Assembly (NCBI GenBank): GCA_947474365.1
Contig: CANJIU010000029.1
Location: 1-64,000, forward strand
Length of the DNA: 64,000 bases
Direction: 5' to 3'
Origin: Opitutia bacterium
GTDB taxonomy: Bacteria; Verrucomicrobiota; Verrucomicrobiia; Opitutales; Opitutaceae
The notes under the pieces: model-generated
What the model was told of the DNA's origin: nothing
The model's input: the letters and a program-made list of their open reading frames with translations, nothing else
The model's database searches: none
Shown here: positions 1,929-55,748 of the stretch, piece after piece
Layout of the letters: every line of letters starts with the position of its first letter
How positions within the stretch are numbered: the first letter of the stretch is position 1
Made by a program: the position numbers and the translations under genes

Positions 1929-4229
1929 CTACGCCTCCTGCTGCCGCATCAATTCCTGAAAGCGCGGGTCGTTCTGAATCGGCGCGAAATCGAGGTTGTA
2001 GCGGAGGCTTGCGGGCAACTGGAGACCGCTCGCCGCAAACTCGCGCAGCAGCTCAATCGCCTCATTCGCCTGGCCGAGCAGGGCGTAAACCGACGCGAGG
2101 TGCCACCCCCCGTACACGCGCTGATAGTTGTTTTGCACCAACTGATGTTCCCGCCGCCATTGCGCCAACGCAGCGACGGCTGCCTCGCGACGGCCAAGGA
2201 CGAATTCAGCCCGGATGAACAAGGTTTGCGGCGACCCCGCGCGATTGCCCCGTGCGAGTTCCTTCGCGGCTGTGGCGCTGATCTCTTCCGCCAGCCGACG
2301 GGCCGCTTCTTCGCGTCCGAGGGCGAGCAATCGGTTGAGAGCTGCGCCGTGGAACAGGCGAAGTGTTTCCAGCCCGTCAGTCGTAACGGGTATCAGGTCG
2401 CTCACCATTTCGGCGGCGAGTGTGCGAGCCTCCTGCGGGCGATTCATGGCCAGCAGCAAGTCGATGCGCAGCCTCTTTCCCTCCGTCGAATCGGCCGCCG
2501 TGCGGTCCAACAGCCTCAGCGCGGCCGCCGGTCCCCGCCAAATCAGGCGCAGCGTGACCCGATGGGGTGAATATCGTTCTTGGAGCGCCTCGAACCGGGC
2601 GAGCAGTCGATCCGCCTCGGCAAAGTCGCCTTTGCGCCAGAAAATGTCCGCCGCATGGCCCCTCATATAGTCGGCGTTGTTCGGATCGAGTTGCACCATC
2701 TCGCGCGAGAAACGAAACGCCTCGTCCCACTGCCCGAGGTCGCGCGCCACGAAGGCCTGAATATTGCGCAATTCCGCCGTGGCCGGCTGCAATGCTTCCG
2801 CGCGGGCGAGATCGCGCTGCGCCGCCGCGTAATCCGATTTGACGTGCCGCTCCCAGTTGGCCCGTTGGACGAGCGCCTCGGGCAGGTTGTGCTGCAGCTC
2901 CAGCGCCCGGTCGATCAGGTGGCGGGTTTCGGCGGCCAGCTCGGGATTGCGGTCGTTACCCGCAGCAAAGAAAATGAACTTCGCCTCCGCGAGTGACACC
3001 AAAGCCAGCGCGAAATCCGGATCGAGCGCCACCGCCTGCTCGAGCAGCTTGACGGCTCCGGGAACCGAGGCGAATCCCCGCGCCTGGAGGGCTCGTCCGC
3101 GGAGGTAGGCGTCGTACGCGGCGGAGTTCTTCGTGAGCACAGCCACCGGCGCCGTGGTCGTGCGGCGGGTGAGTTTCGCGACAACGGCGCGCGCGACCTT
3201 TTCCTGCAGCGCGAAGATGTCGGTGAGTTCCTCCGTGAACGTGCCGAGCTCCTCGCTGGAGTTGTCGGCGGGCCGCGCGAGCGTCACGCGGATGCGCACG
3301 CGGCTGCCGACGCGCTGCACGCTGCCCTCGACGAGGCGGGAAACGTTGAGCGCCTTCGCTATTTCCGCCGCGCCGGCATTCTTGCCCTTGAACGAAAAAC
3401 ACGAGGTGTTGCCCGGCACCGTCAGGTCGCGCTCGCGGCGCAGCGCGCCGAGCACCTCCTCGGTGAGACCGTCGGAAAAATATTCCTGCTCCTTGTCGCC
3501 ACTGAGATTTGCGAACGGCAGCACGGCGACGGATTTGGCTGATGCCAAATCCGAAGGTGGCTGCGCCGCGATCGGAGCAGACGGGGGAGGCGAGGACTTC
3601 GTCGGTGTCGGCGGAACGTTCCACGGCCGCCAGAACACGAGGGCAACGAGGGCGGCGACGGCGATGGTCGCGGGCGCGAGCCATCGGCGGGCGGGTGTTT
3701 TTATTGTAGCCGGCCTCGCTGAGGCCGGTTTCGCACCGGGGTCAGCGACCCCGGCTACACCAGGCACACCCAACAGCTGCTTCACGCGTTCGCCGAACGC
3801 GTTTAACGAATCGGCGGAGCAGATTCGGGTCCATTGCACGGTACGGAACTCCCCTGGCACGTCGGCATCGGCGTCCCGCGTCGCGTCGATCGCCACCGGC
3901 AGCAGGAACGCGGTGCGCTCCGACATCATGTGCGTGCGCTGCGCGGCGAGTTTCCACTCTAGCCGGAAATAGCCCTCCTTGCGCGCCTGCGTGTTGGCCG
4001 AAATCACCGGCACGAACAGCGCGCACGTCGCGATCTGCCCGCGGATCTTCGTGTCCCACGCATCGCCGCCGACGAGCTCACTCTGATCGAGCCACACTTC
4101 GACCCCAGCCGCCCGCAGCGCTTCGCAGATGCGCTTCGCCGCCTCCACGTCCTGCGACGCGTAGCTGAGGAAGACCGCGTCGCGAGGCGCGGAACGGTCA
4201 ACGTTCAACGCTGAACGTTCAACGCTCAA
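1929..4229 (-). CDS. TIR-TM-TolB-like-TPR protein 1
   Basis: A 766-residue multidomain protein. Residues ~18-155 are a TIR domain (FLSYASQDVEAAKR opening; YFRLEW motif with Glu91 where NADase TIRs carry the catalytic Glu). Residues ~155-180 are a linker encoded by a palindromic repeat. One transmembrane helix lies at ~184-201. Residues ~232-355 match the TolB-like/FlgO-like N-terminal domain common in signalling proteins (SVAVLPFANLSGD, YFSDGLTEEVL, LVEGSVQRVG). The rest, ~360-766, is a TPR superhelix. The start is a TTG in repeat DNA; the real start may be nearer Phe20. Its paralogue lies 85 bp upstream, so co-transcription is likely. With one helix after the TIR domain, the TIR would be cytoplasmic and the TolB/TPR part probably periplasmic; this is inference. 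NADase activity or a defence role is possible but unproven. Confidence 0.85.
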   Translation of the reverse strand: MSVERSALNVDRSAPRDAVFLSYASQDVEAAKRICEALRAAGVEVWLDQSELVGGDAWDTKIRGQIATCALFVPVISANTQARKEGYFRLEWKLAAQRTHMMSERTAFLLPVAIDATRDADADVPGEFRTVQWTRICSADSLNAFGERVKQLLGVPGVAGVADPGAKPASARPATIKTPARRWLAPATIAVAALVALVFWRPWNVPPTPTKSSPPPSAPIAAQPPSDLASAKSVAVLPFANLSGDKEQEYFSDGLTEEVLGALRRERDLTVPGNTSCFSFKGKNAGAAEIAKALNVSRLVEGSVQRVGSRVRIRVTLARPADNSSEELGTFTEELTDIFALQEKVARAVVAKLTRRTTTAPVAVLTKNSAAYDAYLRGRALQARGFASVPGAVKLLEQAVALDPDFALALVSLAEAKFIFFAAGNDRNPELAAETRHLIDRALELQHNLPEALVQRANWERHVKSDYAAAQRDLARAEALQPATAELRNIQAFVARDLGQWDEAFRFSREMVQLDPNNADYMRGHAADIFWRKGDFAEADRLLARFEALQERYSPHRVTLRLIWRGPAAALRLLDRTAADSTEGKRLRIDLLLAMNRPQEARTLAAEMVSDLIPVTTDGLETLRLFHGAALNRLLALGREEAARRLAEEISATAAKELARGNRAGSPQTLFIRAEFVLGRREAAVAALAQWRREHQLVQNNYQRVYGGWHLASVYALLGQANEAIELLREFAASGLQLPASLRYNLDFAPIQNDPRFQELMRQQEA
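3705..3759. repeat. REPIN-like double hairpin inside a coding sequence
   Basis: Two adjacent perfect hairpins: 3710-3728 (stem CCGGCCTC, loop GCT) and 3736-3754 (stem CCGGGGTC, loop AGC). The loops are reverse complements and the whole is framed by an outer inverted repeat TGTAGCCGG/CCGGCTACA (3705-3713 and 3751-3759). It is in frame in the TIR gene and encodes the linker ~155-173 between TIR domain and membrane helix. The paralogue at 4315-6675 has an unrelated Pro-rich linker here. Confidence 0.9.
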
Positions 4230-4297
4230 GGTGCGGGCCTCCGGAATTTGAACGTGGGTTGGGTCACTTCAGCGTTGGGCGCTAAGAGTTGAGCGTT
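4165..4297. repeat. dispersed repeat, copy B
   Basis: About 133 bp homologous to 1774-1878, spanning the 5' end of TIR gene 1 and the gap to TIR gene 2. The palindrome has one mismatch (CCGCGTC-gcga-GGCGCGG). It contains alternating AACGTTCAACGCT units, the shared CTCCGGAATTTGAA block and a terminal AAGAGTTGAGCGTT. Because it supplies the TTG start and first ~16 codons, the gene's N-terminus is repeat-encoded or the start is misplaced. Confidence 0.8.
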
Positions 4298-4314: not shown

Positions 4315-6675
4315 TCAGAAGAGCGGTTGGTGGTACTTCGGATCCTTGAGCAGCGCTTCAAACCGGGGATGGCCGCGCAAGGGGGCGAACGCGGGATCGA
4401 ACGCGAGATCGTGGACGCTCCATTCGTAACCGAAGGGGATCCGGAGCAGACGCGCCAGTTCGTCTAGGGCGCGCTCCTTTTCCCCTGTCCACGCATAAAC
4501 CGCCGCCCGCTTCCGTTGCAGCCGCCGCGCTTCGACGATGTCCCGTGCCTCAGGAAGCAGTTCCACGGCCTTGGTGGCATCGCGCACCGCTTCGAGCTTC
4601 TGGCCGAGCACGGCTTCCATGAGGGCGAACTCCCCCAGTCCCTCCGCGCTGTTCGGGTTGGCTTCGAGCCGGGACTGGAGAGCTTGATGAGCCTTGGCCA
4701 ATCGCTGGCGCGCACCCGCCGGATCACCTTGAAGCGCGATGATCATCGCCGCCAGGGTGGCTGACTTGGCGGTCTCCCCTGCCACGGTTCCGTTGGCGTT
4801 CCGCACGGTGCCGCGCAGCACGTCCAGCCGGAGCCATTCCGTGTGGTCGCCCCGGATCTGCGCGAGCCACTTGCGCACCCCCAGGATCCGCGAAGACTCA
4901 ATCGTTCCGGGCGGCAACCCCGCCAGCCAGTCGTCGGCCACCTGGGTCGAACCCGTGGCGCTGAACATCGCTTCGGCAAAATAGGCGCGATCCTGAATCA
5001 GCATATCGACCTGCTCCACCGGACGCAGGGCATTCATGCGCTGCCGGACTTCACGCATGTCGTCCCACCGCCGGAAGGCCGCGAGCAGGAACGCGAAATC
5101 GATGGCGAGGTCCGCGCCCACCGGATCCAGCTGCAGCGCCCGCCGATGGTTGGCCAGGGATTCCTGCCAGCGGCCCTGCTGTTTCTGGACGGTGGCCAGG
5201 CCCCAAATGGCCCCGGCATTGCTCGGCTGGAGCTGGATGACTTTTTCGAACTCCCCCAGTGCTTGCGTGTAATCGCGGCGGGCCCGAAAAGTGAACCATC
5301 CCCGGGCCAGGTGCGTGCTCGGAGCATCGGGCGCCAGTTGAACGGCGCGGGCCAGGGCCTCTTCGCCCCCGCCTGCGGATTCGGTCGGGAGATTCCTCCA
5401 GGCGCGAGTGATGGCGAGCTCGCTCCACGCCAGGGCGAAATTGGGATCGTGTCCCACGGCCGAGAGCAACAACCGCTCCCGCGTGGCCCGGTGCACCTTG
5501 CTTCGCATCAACATGGCCCGTGCCTTCAGGTACAAATCGTAGGCGGCGACATTTTCGGTGGGCCGGTGCTCGAGCAGTTTCTGCTCGTCCGGCGATAGCA
5601 CCGTTTGCAGTTCGGCGGCGATGGCCTTGGCGATTTCGGCCTGGATGGTGAATACGTCGCTCAGGTCCCGCTCGAAAGGGGGCATCGCCCGCAGCACGGT
5701 GTCGGAGCGTGCGTCGTTGAGCTTGGCGGTCACGCGGACTTTGTTGCCCACCCGCTGCACGCTGCCTTCGAGGATGTAGGCGACGCCCAGTTCCAAGCCG
5801 ATTTCCTTCAGGCTTTTTTTCGTGCCGCGATACTGCTCGACCGACGTGCGCGACACGACGCGCAGCGCGCGGATGTTGAAGAGATTCGTCAGGATGTCCT
5901 CGTGCACCCCGTCGGTGAAGAATTCGTTTTCCTTGTCCGGGCTGCGGTTGGCGAACGGGAGGACTGCGATGGATTTGTTCGAGCCGGCGGATTTATCCAC
6001 CGGGGCCGACTTGTCGTTCACCACCGGAACGGGTGCGGCCAGGGGCTTGGGCTCGGCGACGGGAGGGGAGGCCGGAGCGGCGTCCCGGCCGGCCGGCCGG
6101 ATCACGATGAGGGCGACGAGACCGAGCACGACAACCCCCAACACCGCCCCCATCCAATGGGACAGGCCGGTTTTTGGGCCCGGACCCACCACCGGCACCG
6201 GCCGAGGCAGCGGTCCCGCAGGAGCGGACGGCGCGTCCCGCCCGCCCAGGAGCGTCTGCACGCGCGTCACGAACGCGGCGGTGGTTTCGCCGGCGGGGAG
6301 GCGCGTCCATTGCACACCGAGAAACGATTTCGGCACGAGCGCGTCGCGGTCCTTCGTGTCGTCGATGACCACCGGCAGAAGGAACGGGGTGCCCTCCGCC
6401 ATCAGGTGCGTGCGCTCATCCGCGAGTTTCCATTCCAGCCGGAAATAGCCTTCGCGCCGCGCCTGCGTGTTGGCGGAGACGATAGGTAAAAAAAGTACGC
6501 ACGTCGCAACCTGGCCCCGGATTTTCTGATCCCACGCGTCGCCGCCGGTGAGTTCACTCTGGTCGAGCCACACCTCCACCCCGGCCGTCCGCAGCGCCTC
6601 GGAAATACGCTTCGCCGCCTCCACGTCCTGTGACGCGTAGCTGAGGAAGACGGCTTGGCCGGCGGAATCGGACAT
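4315..6675 (-). CDS. TIR-TM-TolB-like-TPR protein 2
   Basis: Paralogue of the next gene, 786 residues from the ATG at 6675 (MSDSAGQAVFLSYAS), chosen because the TIR fold begins directly after it; the frame is open further upstream but without domain sequence. TIR domain ~8-145 with Glu81 in the YFRLEW motif; Pro-rich linker; transmembrane helix ~174-193; TolB-like domain ~233-356 (SIAVLPFANRS, FFTDGVHEDIL, LEGSVQRVGNKVRV); then about 430 residues of TPR-type helices. The TIR halves of the two paralogues are far more alike than the TPR halves, as expected if the TPRs read different partners. Probable first gene of a TIR2-TIR1-sulfatase transcript. Confidence 0.85.
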   Translation of the reverse strand: MSDSAGQAVFLSYASQDVEAAKRISEALRTAGVEVWLDQSELTGGDAWDQKIRGQVATCVLFLPIVSANTQARREGYFRLEWKLADERTHLMAEGTPFLLPVVIDDTKDRDALVPKSFLGVQWTRLPAGETTAAFVTRVQTLLGGRDAPSAPAGPLPRPVPVVGPGPKTGLSHWMGAVLGVVVLGLVALIVIRPAGRDAAPASPPVAEPKPLAAPVPVVNDKSAPVDKSAGSNKSIAVLPFANRSPDKENEFFTDGVHEDILTNLFNIRALRVVSRTSVEQYRGTKKSLKEIGLELGVAYILEGSVQRVGNKVRVTAKLNDARSDTVLRAMPPFERDLSDVFTIQAEIAKAIAAELQTVLSPDEQKLLEHRPTENVAAYDLYLKARAMLMRSKVHRATRERLLLSAVGHDPNFALAWSELAITRAWRNLPTESAGGGEEALARAVQLAPDAPSTHLARGWFTFRARRDYTQALGEFEKVIQLQPSNAGAIWGLATVQKQQGRWQESLANHRRALQLDPVGADLAIDFAFLLAAFRRWDDMREVRQRMNALRPVEQVDMLIQDRAYFAEAMFSATGSTQVADDWLAGLPPGTIESSRILGVRKWLAQIRGDHTEWLRLDVLRGTVRNANGTVAGETAKSATLAAMIIALQGDPAGARQRLAKAHQALQSRLEANPNSAEGLGEFALMEAVLGQKLEAVRDATKAVELLPEARDIVEARRLQRKRAAVYAWTGEKERALDELARLLRIPFGYEWSVHDLAFDPAFAPLRGHPRFEALLKDPKYHQPLF

Positions 6676-6739
6676 GAACAACGTGGGGGAGTGGGTGTGG
6701 GCCGGTACCCGGTCAAATTGGGAATACGGGGCCGACGCT

Positions 6740-6758
6740 GGCGAGGTAAAACCTCGCC
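6740..6758. repeat. small perfect hairpin
   Basis: GGCGAGGT-aaa-ACCTCGCC, an 8-bp perfect stem in the 249-bp gap between the TIR 2 start and the desaturase stop. No T-run follows on either strand, so it looks more like a REP-type palindrome than an intrinsic terminator. Nothing else was recognised in this gap. Confidence 0.6.
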
Positions 6759-6924
6759 CGATGCCGGACCATTTCGGAGCAAGCCTGCGCCACCGAGCGA
6801 GGATGATCTTTGCGGTTCTTGGCGCTCGTTTGTCGGGCAAATTGGTCGATGCTCCAACCGAAGGCACCGACGCATTCGGCTACGCGTAGAAAATCAGCTG
6901 AGCTCTTGACTGCTTGGTCGCGGC

Positions 6925-11824: not shown

Positions 11825-12255
11825 TTACCGCAGGGCCTCCAGCACAATCCCGGGGGTGAGCAGCTTAGGCAGAATCACGGGCGCATCTTTGCCGGGTAGC
11901 CAGATGACATTGAAGGGGACGGCGCTGCGGTTGTACGCGGCAAGTTCGGCCGCGATGCGCGGATCCTGGTTGGTCCAGTCGCGCGGAGCGTGGCGATTTT
12001 CTTCGCGGCAAAGGTCCGCAGCAGCTCGTCGTTGTGAAACACGAGCTTCTTGTTCGCCTGGCAGGTGGCGCACCAGCGGGCGGTGAAGTCGACGTAGATG
12101 ATCCGCCCTTCGCCGCGCAGTTTCGCCACGGCCTCTCGGCTCCACGGTTCCCGCACGATTTCGGGCGCGCCGGACGCGCTCGCGGCGACAATCACGAGGC
12201 CGAAGAGCACGTTTTATAGGCCCTCCTCGGTGGTTTCGCCGGCGAGTCCCCACAC
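11825..12255 (-). pseudogene. truncated, decayed copy of the dsbD 3' end
   Basis: Strongly similar to the last third of the intact dsbD at 13706-15847, from VWxLAGxTTEEGL to the C-terminal stop. Lesions are visible: an in-frame TAA replaces the Gln codon just after the TTEEGL equivalent (near 12217); one in-frame deletion fuses LFG directly to LVIVAAS; a second removes the stretch between VAAS and SGAPE; and one base is lost at ~11981 (CAGTCGCGCGG against CAGTCGGCGCGG), shifting the frame. The thioredoxin motif WCATC is still present. The 5' break lies within about 10 bp of a MITE-like element. It cannot make DsbD. Confidence 0.9.
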
Positions 12256-12262
12256 GACGATT

Positions 12263-12403
12263 CGATCAGGGTCGGTCCTCTAGTCGCTAGTTTTTCAACT
12301 TCAGAATTCGGGCGCCAACCGGTCGGCCCATCAGCTGCGTCGTTCGTCCGCACCGATGTTTCTCGCGGGAAGTAGCGACTAGCGGCTTGACCCTCTTTGA
12401 TCG
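12263..12403. mobile_element. MITE-like element, copy 1
   Basis: A 141-bp non-coding element bounded by imperfect terminal inverted repeats of about 28 bp: the left end CGATCAGGGTCGG...CTAGTCGCTA (12263-12289) pairs with the right end TAGCGACTAG...GACCCTCTTTGATCG (12373-12403). The inner 10 bp (CTAGTCGCTA/TAGCGACTAG) is perfect. It is homologous over its length to 13288-13432, sharing the internal TTTTTCAACTTCAGAATTC block. It has no open frame and would need a transposase in trans. Confidence 0.8.
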
Positions 12404-12459
12404 GGCCCAGCGCCCGCCTGACCACCCCATGTCAACTTTGGATCGGTGGGGCGCGCGGC

Positions 12460-13185
12460 TTACATCGCCGGCGCCTTCACGTTCACCGCCGTGTCGGGGT
12501 AAAACGTCACCTTGCCCGTCGCGAGATTATACATCGCGCCCACGAGCCCGATCTGGCCGGCATCGAGCATTTCCTTCAGCACCGGGCTGCGCTCGCGGAT
12601 CTGCGCGACCGCGCCGCGCACGTTGGCCGCGGCCACCTTCTCTACGAACACCGAATTCTTCGAGCTGCGATCGCCGCTGTCCGGGACCGCGGCTACCGCC
12701 GGTTTGATCTTCGCCAGCGTGGCGGTGAGGTTGCCCAACTTCACGTCGTCGCACGCGCCCTTGACGGCGCCGCAGCTGCTGTGGCTCAGCACCACGATGA
12801 GCTTCGCGCCTGCCGCCTTATGGGCGAACTCGAGGCTGCCGAGGATGTCTTCGTTGACGAAGTTGCCCGCCACCCGCGCGGAAAACGCCTCGCCGAGCCC
12901 GAGATCGAACAGATACTCCGACGACGTCCGTGAATCCAGGCACGTGACGATCGACGCGGTGGGATACTGGCCTTGCGCCGTAACCTTGACCTGGGTCACC
13001 AAGTCGCGCGCCTGCGGCTTGCCCGAGGCGAAGCGCTGGTTGCCTTCCACGAGCCGGTCCAGTGCCTGCTGTGGCGTGGTCGCCTGCTGGGCGCTCTGGC
13101 GGGCCGTATCGGGCGTAGAGGCCGCCCAGGTCGTGGCACTGAGGGCGAGAAGCAGGAGTGAGCGGAGGGAGTGGGTGATTTGCAT
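12460..13185 (-). CDS. periplasmic beta-carbonic anhydrase
   Basis: A 241-residue beta-class carbonic anhydrase, interconverting CO2 and bicarbonate at a zinc centre. Ligands are Cys82 with the Asp84-Arg86 dyad (T-C-L-D-S-R), His135 and Cys138 (SHSSCGAVKGA). Start was placed at the ATG at 13185 because it opens a clear signal peptide (MQITHSLRSLLLLAL, cleavage near Ala22), so the enzyme is exported. The upstream extension in frame is Arg-rich and unlikely to be translated. The gene sits between two copies of a MITE-like element and between a decayed and an intact dsbD. Confidence 0.92.
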   Translation of the reverse strand: MQITHSLRSLLLLALSATTWAASTPDTARQSAQQATTPQQALDRLVEGNQRFASGKPQARDLVTQVKVTAQGQYPTASIVTCLDSRTSSEYLFDLGLGEAFSARVAGNFVNEDILGSLEFAHKAAGAKLIVVLSHSSCGAVKGACDDVKLGNLTATLAKIKPAVAAVPDSGDRSSKNSVFVEKVAAANVRGAVAQIRERSPVLKEMLDAGQIGLVGAMYNLATGKVTFYPDTAVNVKAPAM

Positions 13186-13287
13186 ACCCGGCAAACTTAC
13201 CAGCCGGCCCCTCCTCCACCTACTGGAATTTCGAGCCCGCGTTTCCACGTGCGCGGGCTGCAGGCGGGCGAGCCGAAAGTTTACTTG

Positions 13288-13432
13288 GGATCCGTCGGGG
13301 TCAGTCCGCTGGCCGTTAGTTTTTCAACTTCAGAATTCGGCGCCGCCTGACAAGTCAGTCAGCTGGGACGTTCGCCCGCATCGATGTTGCTCCCGCGAAG
13401 TAGCGACTAGCGGCCCGACCCTCTTGGATCGG
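13288..13432. mobile_element. MITE-like element, copy 2
   Basis: A 145-bp homologue of 12263-12403. The right arm (GAAGTAGCGACTAGCGG...GACCCTCTTGGATCGG) is well kept; the left arm (GGATCCGTCGGGGTCAGTCCGCTGGCCGTTAG) pairs with it with several mismatches. The internal TTTTTCAACTTCAGAATTCGG block is shared. It lies upstream of the carbonic anhydrase gene and could carry or alter its promoter. Confidence 0.75.
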
Positions 13433-13474
13433 TCACCCCTGTCCTCCTCGCGACGAAAGAAACGCCTCGGGTGA

Positions 13475-13658
13475 TTTTCAAAAACCGTTTTTTGAAAAAC
13501 TAACCTGATATTTGAAAACCTAGCCGGAGAAATTCAGTCGAGAGCGGAGAGCCGAGAGCTGAGAGCAAAACCAAACGGTGAACTTCGGTTTTGGCGTGCG
13601 GCGCGCGTGTCTGCTCTGGAGATTGGGCTCTCAGCTCTTCGCTCTGAGCTCTCGACTG
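13475..13658. repeat. inverted repeats downstream of dsbD
   Basis: Two structures in the gap after the dsbD stop. At 13475-13498 an AT-rich 10-bp perfect inverted repeat TTTTCAAAAA/TTTTTGAAAA surrounds CCGT. At 13535-13566 and 13627-13658 two 32-bp arms form an imperfect inverted repeat (CAGTCGAGAGC ends matching perfectly) built of GAGAGCTGAGAGC-type units, with a 60-bp loop that itself contains AAAACC/GGTTTT arms. The unit style resembles the GAGCGTTGAGAGTTG repeats at 1774, 4165 and 14950. No gene is seen between 13433 and 13705. Confidence 0.75.
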
Positions 13659-13705
13659 CATGGTCGCGTATCAGGTGATTTGATCCACCACACTTCAATC
13701 CCCTC

Positions 13706-15847
13706 CTACTTCAAAGCCTCCAGCACAATCCCGGGGGTGAGCAGCTCGGGCAGAATCACGGGCGCATCCTTGCCGGGCAGCCAGATGACATTGAAGGGGA
13801 CGGCGCTGCGGTTGTACGCGGCGAGTTCGGCCGTGATGCGCGGATCCTGGTTGGTCCAGTCGGCGCGGAGCGTGGCGATTTTCTTCGCGGCAAATGTTCG
13901 CAGCACCTCGTCGTTGTGAAACACGAGCTTCTTGTTCGCCTGGCAGGTGGCGCACCAGCGGGCGGTGAAGTCGACGTAGATAATCCGGCCCTCGGCACGG
14001 AGTTTCGAGACGGCCTCTCGGCTCCACGGTTCCCACGCGATTTCGGGCGCGCCGGACGCGGTCGCGGCGGCGCTGCGGGCGGCGGCGTTGTGCGGCCAGC
14101 CGAGCCAGAGGCCGCTCGCGGCGACAATCACCAGGCCGATCACCCCAAAACGTACGCGGCCCGCGGAGGCGCCCGGGGCGTTCCAGCGGCCATAGACCCA
14201 CACACCGAGCGCGACGAGTACGAGGCCGAAGAGCACGTTTTGCAGGCCCTCTTCGGTGGTCTGGCCGGCGAGCACCCACACGAGGTAGCCCACGGTCGCG
14301 TAGAGCGGAAACGCCATGAACTGCTTGAACGTTTCCATCCACGCCCCGGGCCGCGGCAGCACCTTCACGGCTTGGGGGAAAATCGAGAGGAGCAGGTACG
14401 GCGCGGCCAGGCCGATCGCAATCGCGGTGAAGATGGCGAACGACTCGATCGTCGAGAGTGCGAGCGCCGCACCGAGTGCTGGCGCGAGAAACGGTGCACT
14501 GCACGGGGTGGCGACCACGGTCGCGAGCACGCCGGTGAAGAACGAGCCAGCGTATCCGGACTTCATCTGCAGGTCGGAGCCGACGCCCGTCGCGCTCAGG
14601 CCGAACTCGAACACGCCGCTCATGTTCATCGCAAACACGAGCATCACGGCGGCGAGCGTGAACACGAAGGCGGGAGACTGAAGCTGGAAGCCCCAGCCGA
14701 TTTTGTCGCCGCCTGCGCGCAGGATCGCGAGCACGGTGGCGAGCGTCCAGAATGAGAGCAGCACCCCGAGCGCAAACACGAGGCCGTGCATCACGACCTT
14801 CTTTTTGTCGTGCCCGGCTTGGTTGACGAATCCGAGGATCTTGATCCCGAGCACGGGAAACACGCACGGCATCAGGTTGAGGATCAGACCACCGACCAGC
14901 GCGAGTAGGAGGGTGCCGAGGAGCGAGGTGGGGGCGGCGGGTGCCGTCGGTTGAGAGTTGAGCGTTGAGGGTTGGGAGCTGGAACCACTGGCGCTGAAGG
15001 CGGCGTCAACGCGCAGGCCACGCGCGGGGCCACCGGGGCCCCAGCCGTTTTCGGAGGTGACGACCCCGAGGAGGCGGGTCACGTCCGCCGGACCTGTCGC
15101 ATCGATCGGCACGGTGAGGACGAAACCGCCGTGTCCGTCTGACTGCACGGCCTGCGGCAGCTCATAGGCGGTGAATCCGTCTTCCGAGAAGAAGTGCAGG
15201 TCTTTCGGCACATGGCCGCCGGCGGCCGTGGGGGTGATGGCCAGCAGGACGTTTTTCGCGCCGCGCGCCGCGGTGATTTTCCACGCCGCGTCGGAGCGGG
15301 GCAGGGCGGCGACGGTCGCGCGGATTTTTTCCCCGGAGGTGGCGTCTGCCTGCGGAGCGGCGGCGGTCACGGGCAGGGTGAGAGTGAGTTTCGCGCTGCC
15401 GGGAATGCAGATGTCCTCGCACATCAGCCATTCGACACTGGCTTTGAGTTCCACGCTGGTACCGGGAGCGGCGTCGGCGGGAGCTGTGAGTGTGACGGGG
15501 AGAAACAGTTCCCCTTCGTAGCCGTTGCCGACGATGTTCTTCTTGCTGTCGAGCAGCACGCGCGGTGCTGGCCACTGGATGTCACCGGCGGTCCAACCGG
15601 CGGGGAGGGTCCACGTGATCTTGGTGGGCAAGCCGGTGCCGGGAAAAACCCAATACGTGTGCCAGTGTGGATCGTGGACCAAGCGCAGGGCGATGGTGAT
15701 CGGTCGGCCGGGTTGCACGGTGGTGTCGGCCGCGACGAGCGAGGCGGCGACGTGGCTTGGCTTTTCGGCGGCGACGCCGGGGCGCGGCAGCGAGGCGAGG
15801 GTGCAAAGGGCGAGCGAGAAGGCGAAAAGCAGTCGGCGGAGCAACAT
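13706..15847 (-). CDS. dsbD: thiol:disulfide interchange protein DsbD
   Basis: A 713-residue DsbD carrying cytoplasmic reducing power across the membrane to periplasmic thiol proteins. Signal peptide ~1-26; N-terminal periplasmic domain with its cysteine pair in MCEDIC (~142-146); a repeat-encoded linker (STLNSQ) near residue 295; eight-helix CcdA-like membrane domain with the paired cysteines in MPCVFP and TPCSAPFLAP; and a C-terminal thioredoxin domain with Cys632-Ala-Thr-Cys635. All three thiol pairs are present, so it should be functional. A decayed duplicate of its 3' third lies 1.5 kb away on the same strand. It diverges from the caspase-like lipoprotein gene, 115 bp apart. Confidence 0.95.
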   Translation of the reverse strand: MLLRRLLFAFSLALCTLASLPRPGVAAEKPSHVAASLVAADTTVQPGRPITIALRLVHDPHWHTYWVFPGTGLPTKITWTLPAGWTAGDIQWPAPRVLLDSKKNIVGNGYEGELFLPVTLTAPADAAPGTSVELKASVEWLMCEDICIPGSAKLTLTLPVTAAAPQADATSGEKIRATVAALPRSDAAWKITAARGAKNVLLAITPTAAGGHVPKDLHFFSEDGFTAYELPQAVQSDGHGGFVLTVPIDATGPADVTRLLGVVTSENGWGPGGPARGLRVDAAFSASGSSSQPSTLNSQPTAPAAPTSLLGTLLLALVGGLILNLMPCVFPVLGIKILGFVNQAGHDKKKVVMHGLVFALGVLLSFWTLATVLAILRAGGDKIGWGFQLQSPAFVFTLAAVMLVFAMNMSGVFEFGLSATGVGSDLQMKSGYAGSFFTGVLATVVATPCSAPFLAPALGAALALSTIESFAIFTAIAIGLAAPYLLLSIFPQAVKVLPRPGAWMETFKQFMAFPLYATVGYLVWVLAGQTTEEGLQNVLFGLVLVALGVWVYGRWNAPGASAGRVRFGVIGLVIVAASGLWLGWPHNAAARSAAATASGAPEIAWEPWSREAVSKLRAEGRIIYVDFTARWCATCQANKKLVFHNDEVLRTFAAKKIATLRADWTNQDPRITAELAAYNRSAVPFNVIWLPGKDAPVILPELLTPGIVLEALK
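14950..14980. repeat. GAGCGTTGAGAGTTG-type repeat inside dsbD
   Basis: TTGAGAGTTGAGCGTTGAGG and the following GTTGGGAGCT are the same kind of repeat as the intergenic copies at 1774-1878 and 4165-4297. Read on the minus strand it encodes SQPSTLNSQPT in the linker between the DsbD N-terminal domain and the membrane domain. Confidence 0.7.
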
Positions 15848-55502: not shown

Positions 55503-55597
55503 GCGGCGTTCTGCGCGGTCTATTCCGCCGGCAATTGCCGCCGCAATTCTTCCGGAATCAGGAGACAGTGAGCATGTTGTCGGCAACCCACCATCTC

Positions 55598-55667
55598 GTG
55601 GCCGCGAGCGCCAGCGAGTGGAAGCTCGGTCGCGTATCCCGGTCCACTCGCTGGCGCTCGCGGCCAC
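55598..55667. repeat. 25-bp perfect inverted repeat between convergent genes
   Basis: Arms 55598-55622 (begins GTGGCCGCGAGCGCC) and 55643-55667 are exact reverse complements, with a 20-nt loop. It sits in the 246-bp gap between the convergent sulfatase (stop 55502) and TonB receptor (stop 55749). It would form a very stable hairpin in RNA from either strand, so it may end both transcripts, though no T-run follows; the shape also fits a palindromic mobile repeat. No other feature is seen in this gap. Confidence 0.9.
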
Positions 55668-55748
55668 GTGGAGATACGCCGGGACCCCTGTTGGTTGCCC
55701 ACCCGAATCGATGCCGCCGTCGGTCATCGAAGTCCGGCGCGATCCTGT

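Follow-up and report, generated by a model that had tools for sequence, protein, structure and literature searches.

A GTAG-type REPIN translated as most of the TIR-to-membrane linker of a verrucomicrobial protein, and the recurrence of several REP families at this linker

A stretch of 64,000 nucleotides from an Opitutia bacterium (contig CANJIU010000029.1; hereafter the window) was found to contain a 55-bp REPIN, i.e., a GTAG-type REP doublet, which is read in frame as most of the segment that links the TIR domain to the putative membrane helix in a predicted protein, TIR1. This REPIN was probably inserted and is translated, and the permissive TIR linker was probably colonised many times by several REP families. 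According to this explanation, the 55-bp element would be a non-autonomous mobile doublet that inserted into the TIR-to-membrane linker, most of which it now encodes. The linker itself would have to be little more than flexible and about 34 residues long, which would let frame-keeping insertions survive, and many insertions of several REP families would have occurred across the TIR family in the genus of the window and in related Verrucomicrobia. We infer that movement is driven by RAYT, that the inserted residues are neutral and that selection acts on linker length and frame.

The GTAG-type REPIN occupies window positions 3705..3759, where its minus-strand frame corresponds to TIR1 residues 158-175, and its plus-strand letters are TGTAGCCGGCCTCGCTGAGGCCGG-TTTCGCA-CCGGGGTCAGCGACCCCGGCTACA. 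As the initial annotation had described, a pair of mutually inverted hairpins, with TGTAGCCGG/CCGGCTACA as the outer arms, lies wholly inside the TIR1 frame (ORF 1929-4229). In gene sense (minus strand), the first REP hairpin (3736..3759) reads TGTAG followed by CCGGGGTC GCT GACCCCGG, with its initial stem bases overlapping the tag region in the drawn ten-copy alignment, and the second (3705..3728) reads CCGGCCTC AGC GAGGCCGG followed by CTACA. The stems are 8 bp long in both hairpins (CCGGGGTC/GACCCCGG and CCGGCCTC/GAGGCCGG). The spacer between the hairpins (TGCGAAA; 3729..3735, minus strand) has 7 nt in the window copy, as compared to 1 nt in eight of the nine further aligned copies and 2 nt in the one on contig C35, and with it the element length of 55 stays in phase with the usual 49. 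The element ends are TGTAG/CTACA, and G-T-A-G is invariant across the ten aligned copies. The pattern GTAGCCGG-N4-20-CCGG matched twice in the window, both times at 3705-3759, while 100 shuffles gave a mean of 0.16 matches and reached two matches in 3 cases. The inverted-repeat arm score of the TIR1 linker was 13, a value reached by none of 100 codon shuffles.

TIR1 is a 766-aa ORF on the minus strand (1929..4229) with a TIR_2 Pfam match at residues 19-140 and a TPR region whose weak match is below the Pfam cut-off. Its middle part after the predicted membrane helix is without a Pfam match and is taken by us to be FlgO/TolB-like. The linker (residues 155-182) is encoded at 3684..3767, and the hydrophobic stretch of residues 183-199, a putative membrane helix defined by the hydropathy maximum, at 3633..3683, both on the minus strand. 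The REPIN supplies 18 of the 28 linker residues. Residues 158-175, spelled VAGVADPGAKPASARPAT, are encoded by it in frame and fall between the final TIR helix and the hydrophobic stretch, which bears out the earlier claim that the palindrome encodes the linker; the site is presumably tolerant of insertion. An AlphaFold2 model from a six-sequence alignment (mean pLDDT 60, with the TIR part also poor) is without secondary structure from residue 153 to a helix at residue 187 (pLDDT 24-35), and is of little weight given the poor TIR part. The paralogue TIR2 (4315..6867, minus strand) has a Pro-rich linker that is unrelated to that of TIR1, as had been stated, and this linker is absent from the set of linkers with an arm score of at least 9.

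Further repeats were observed in the window. An 89-nt repeat with 79% identity (1797-1885 and 4209-4297) spans the start regions of a sulfatase-like ORF (342-1817) and of TIR1, so that both predicted proteins start with MSVERSA; their true start codons may be further downstream. Perfect 26-bp arms (CGTGGCCGCGAGCGCCAGCGAGTGGA) form a palindrome at 55597-55668, which overlaps ORFs on both strands, and similar arms are present in genome G003 (L278, L291). At 11826-14283, repeated blocks about 1.0 to 2.0 kb apart (86-94% identity) suggest duplication.

The window element belongs to a dispersed family. In the window's own genome (G000; 10.35 Mb, 275 contigs, 7.4% contamination, so that single contigs may be from another organism), the genome-wide search called for by the initial annotation yielded nine further aligned two-hairpin copies (C2, C13, C25, C45, C59, C113, C204, C35 and C143). 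All genomes used were contig-level assemblies. A covariance model built from the ten aligned copies gave, at a threshold of E <= 0.01, 26 rows in G000, 89 in G001, 50 in G003 and 138 in G024, counted per strand, so that one place can yield two rows and places are fewer than rows. The view that a REPIN-like repeat has turned into coding sequence is supported. The residue string also proved usable as a searchable marker: the same or a related string was found in the TIR linkers of G001:C195 (VAGVADPGPASARPAT), G024:C13, G000:C232 (second half decayed) and G003:C334 (VAGFVEPGPASARPAT, read from the DNA by eye). Linker residues shared by distant relatives without the palindrome, which would mean coincidence of coding, were not seen among the linkers examined. 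The linker copy at G001:C195 and another copy at G001:C228 are identical over 49/49 nt, an indirect sign of mobility; the C228 copy is itself found a short distance upstream of an apparently broken TIR reading frame. Among the best 30 window-family loci of the four genomes, three were in a TIR linker and two just upstream of a TIR domain; the window copy is intragenic.

Besides the linker copies, window-type REPIN copies were observed just upstream of TIR domains at L304 (G000:C13) and L300 (G001:C228). In L033, L036, L037 and L038, copies near position 2000 are nested in an inverted repeat of greater size (GGTGCATCTCCGAGTTGTTGCC ... GGCGACAACTCGGAGATGCACC and variants), which may represent a larger compound element.

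Y1_Tnp (PF01797) matches numbered 12 in G000, 7 in G001, 23 in G003 and 2 in G024. At one of the 42 PF01797 loci examined (G001:C269), a full-length 49-mer of the window family immediately precedes the RAYT reading frame, and a window-family copy was found within the examined flanks of 0 of the 12 loci in G000.

A full-length TIR1 search of 38 genomes gave strong relatives in ten of them including G000, all from the genus of the window, to which G003 also belongs. With residues 1-353 of TIR1 as the query, 75 matches were obtained in G000; by hand count, 18 comprise the tail part only and 57 include the TIR head, so that the TIR repertoire is large for one genome. The TIR sample consisted of 120 TIR hits from the genomes with strong relatives and from named MAGs. 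After linkers without a clear hydrophobic stretch or with fewer than 15 residues had been dropped, 106 remained for the first arm-score count and 102 for later counts. The recurrent linker peptide types were VAGVADPG..ASARPAT (window type), ARVSRPV..TGQETRAT, VGRVSDPP..AGHRPALP, GRDASPRRP..GRLGETSLP and EPGRPRP..RDEGVASP. Twelve labels in total were assigned by eye after inspection, so that label counts are descriptive; labelled rows made up 19/49 in G000, 13/21 in G003 and 0/13 among the proteobacterial proteins.

Beyond the window type, four REP families found in TIR linkers are dispersed or RAYT-associated, namely ARVSRPV, RVSDPP, GRDAS and EPGRPRP. The patterns of the first three gave 18, 37 and 51 matches in three, three and two genomes, respectively, and each reversed-pattern control gave 0. 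RVSDPP-type REPs were present on both sides of a Y1 match at G000:C116, EPGRPRP-like 20-mers with 2-3 mismatches on both sides of one at C25:4813, and GRDAS-type REPs on one side of one at C219, all three flanks being read without a chance control. Thus, four family types including that of the window occur beside RAYT genes. The seven remaining linker labels are suspected to be REP families as well, judging from shared peptides and palindromes. TIR ORFs hold 3/7 of the G003 places of GRDAS and 1/2 of those of RVSDPP, and in G000 and G017 the copies of these two families with an examinable locus are mostly outside TIR genes. The initial annotation had presented the TIR1 linker as one case. The window REPIN is real, but the one-case scope is an underestimate, since REPs of several families occur in many linkers of these TIR proteins and shuffled domains are joined at the same site.

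Strong palindromes (arm score of at least 12) were found in 8/43 G000 linkers and 22/63 other linkers, as compared to 0/204 control segments in G000 and 4/303 in the others, one of these four (the post60 segment of L094.47) being a linker mistaken for a control because its TIR hit ended too early. After duplicate removal, 31/89 verrucomicrobial and 0/13 proteobacterial linkers reached this score (Fisher p 0.009), with 8/40 in G000, 10/19 in G003 and none among the TIR controls. The eight strong G000 linkers include L195, which is not a recognised REP, and three of one family. The idea that REP-free linkers are worn-out REPs was not supported, as their mean arm scores of 6.9 (21 linkers in G000) and 6.8 (6 in G003) were near those of the TIR controls (6.1 and 6.3).

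TIR heads and tails are shuffled, and the linker is the joint. The two closest full-length homologues of TIR1, at G000:C115 and G003:C75, match it with 80% and 77% identity along 400 residues of the tail and with 70% and 74% identity in the head, and, in the homologue comparison that had been proposed, both were found to carry linkers different from that of TIR1. At G003:C223, a tail 79% identical to that of TIR1 is fused to another TIR protein. In the second frame of L253 (G003:C223:29500-37000), one long ORF was observed to comprise a TIR-linker-TPR protein and a second FlgO/TPR module, the latter 79% identical to TIR1 residues 212-766; this ORF is a fused product of module shuffling. The head-tail comparison was confined to proteins with a FlgO-like tail (53/102, and 50, 44 and 48 after length cuts). 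For 38 verrucomicrobial proteins, TIR identity was nearly uncorrelated with C-terminal identity (r 0.11, Mantel p 0.01), and the nearest neighbour was the same for 2/38. In block correlations of 37 proteins, TIR versus C blocks gave r 0-0.17 and C blocks among themselves 0.47-0.73. In 38 of the 49 pairs with a TIR identity of at least 0.75, C identity was below 0.45. In 7/8 pairs chosen by hand for having similar heads but unrelated tails, DNA identity dropped to 42-67% at the linker.

This near-absence of correlation and the collapse of identity at the linker would be expected if the REPs acted as recombination joints, with short repeats or palindrome breakage swapping TIR heads between receptor tails and so diversifying the family. 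Two of the eight pairs share a REP type: L082/L083 (EPG type; heads 90% identical in nt; neighbours on C19) and L078/L073 (GRDAS type; linker 74% nt identity; both on C18). However, no REP is shared in the other six (L259/L060, L106/L115, L264/L090, L062/L094, L117/L062 and L063/L099), and in L063/L099 neither linker has a REP. Moreover, the TIR-tail correlation is also weak in the proteobacterial homologues, whose linkers are not palindromic (r 0.29, n 10, p 0.07), and the two TIR halves correlate weakly with each other (r 0.39), so exchange extends beyond the linker. The evidence for REPs driving head-tail shuffling is mixed and mostly negative; recombination through the REPs is an unlikely explanation, and the REPs at the joint are more likely passengers than its cause. 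A broader version, in which REPINs home to the linker as their dedicated place of docking and exchange and, together with a hypervariable stretch around it, form the joint for head-tail swaps in a TIR receptor repertoire, turning a selfish repeat into a diversifier of an immune-like family, appears doubtful to nearly the same degree.

The reading of a permissive linker is itself challenged by palindrome density. With genes called mechanically as the longest ORF, background density was 0.34 per kb intergenic and 0.028 per kb genic in G000 (856 kb sample), and 0.64 and 0.07 per kb in G003 (276 kb sample). Linker density was 1.85 per kb in G000 (Poisson p 1.5e-4 against intergenic) and 4.47 per kb in G003 (p 2.8e-6), linkers being taken as independent in both tests. 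Since mere tolerance would cap linker density at intergenic density, the higher value speaks against our favoured explanation and is not explained by tolerance alone, unless it is inflated by gene duplication. The 5-7-fold excess over intergenic DNA in both genomes, together with the location of 7/9 G003 places of the ARVSRPV family in TIR genes, may instead indicate a true hot spot, at which the REP/RAYT machinery favours linker DNA or existing REPs. Such targeting is improbable, as several families with unlike sequences and different neighbouring RAYTs all use the linker site and as the counts are inflated by gene duplication and gene conversion.

Insertion and descent were compared for the ARVSRPV family, for which a whole-genome search of G003 (at most 2 mismatches) gave nine places, seven of them in TIR ORFs just past the TIR domain. 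In these seven genes, mean pairwise identity was 88% in the REP, 59% in the 50 nt before it and 62% just after it, individual pairs reaching 76% and 80% adjoining the REP; the upstream TIR part showed 68-75% identity, and beyond the 3' flank the values were 53% and then 46%. The REP is thus a discrete unit between diverged flanks. One frame is common to all seven copies, though all three are open (read from one copy). On a quick TIR tree, each REP family is scattered: the rows and changes were 4/4 for the window type, 9/8 for ARV, 6/6 for RVS, 7/7 for GRD and 12/11 for EPG, in a tree that had no label shuffles, takes in rows picked for bearing a REP and lacks the G003:C334 copy, which the motif missed. 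No orthologous empty-site allele was found among the genomes examined. Linker length was the same with a REP motif (median 34 aa, n=43) and without one (33.5 aa, n=30) in seven genomes, which a simple added insertion does not predict; insertions would thus replace old residues, get trimmed or persist only in short linkers.

Copies within one family may in part have arisen by gene duplication or conversion. Contig C18 bears three of the four GRDAS-type linkers of G000, two ARVSRPV genes on G003:C280 lie side by side and have similar flanks, and L082/L083 and L078/L073 share both head and REP type. That old REP-bearing linkers spread entirely in this manner, without insertion, is very improbable in view of the several unrelated REP families, the contrast between a REP at 88% identity and its flanks at 59% and 62%, the occurrence of one REP in genes whose tails are unrelated, and the family members outside TIR genes. 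Chance palindromy of a Pro/Ala/Gly-rich linker in GC-rich DNA is a negligible alternative: a loose BLAST against the 856-kb G000 sample hit at least one background place with 17/43 linkers versus 14/41 TIR segments, and a loose genome pattern gave 82 matches versus 53 for its reversed control, but it is refuted by the dispersed copies, with near-identical 49-mers elsewhere, reversed-pattern controls of 0 for three families and low control arm scores. At a cut-off of at least three places, the loose BLAST separated linkers (5/43) only weakly from TIR segments (1/41); because both loose searches discriminated poorly, arm scores and family searches were relied on.

If insertion into a permissive linker is the correct reading, the TIR family is a naturally replicated experiment in the conversion of mobile DNA into protein, with one linker, many proteins, several repeat families and paralogue controls. 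It lets the needs of an interdomain linker (length, frame and composition) and the seeding of domain shuffling by mobile palindromes be tested. Peptides such as VAGVADPG..ASARPAT and ARVSRPV..TGQETRAT in these bacteria are to be read as translated repeats and not as conserved motifs.

In-frame GTAG REPs as such are known, while their recurrence at one site of one TIR family appears to be new. Di Nocera et al. (2013, PMC3733652) described in-frame GTAG REPs inside ORFs of Opitutus terrae, where REP dimers and groups encode 20-30 residues, and considered such insertions possibly neutral in flexible linkers or loops. Like the window element, these REPs are GTAG-tagged, verrucomicrobial and located inside ORFs. 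They are reported there from varied genes (uvrA, ligase, RNA helicases), at sites that differ within each functional category except for recB of two Xanthomonas, whereas in the window's TIR family several REP families recur at one linker of one large family. A search of open-access literature listings found no report of REPs at TIR linkers; O. terrae TIR genes may be in the supplementary list of intragenic REPs of PMC3733652.

The classical precedent for in-frame palindromic repeats is provided by the Rickettsia palindromic elements (Ogata 2000, 2002), which, according to a review (PMC10969869), are about 150 bp long and occur in unrelated genes. They share with the window REPIN that a palindromic repeat is translated in frame within a protein. 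In contrast, the REPs of the TIR linkers are GTAG-tagged, measure about 50-85 bp and cluster at a single site within one protein family. R. conorii RPE sequences are described as terminating in CGTC (PMC3733652), a tag that the window element lacks, as it ends with TGTAG/CTACA. With the Pseudomonas REPIN-RAYT system (Bertels and Rainey 2011, PMC3116915), the window element has in common the inverted REP doublet, the hairpins, the dispersal and the position of family members beside RAYT genes. The Pseudomonas REPINs are described there as elements of extragenic space, whereas the window REPIN is part of a protein.
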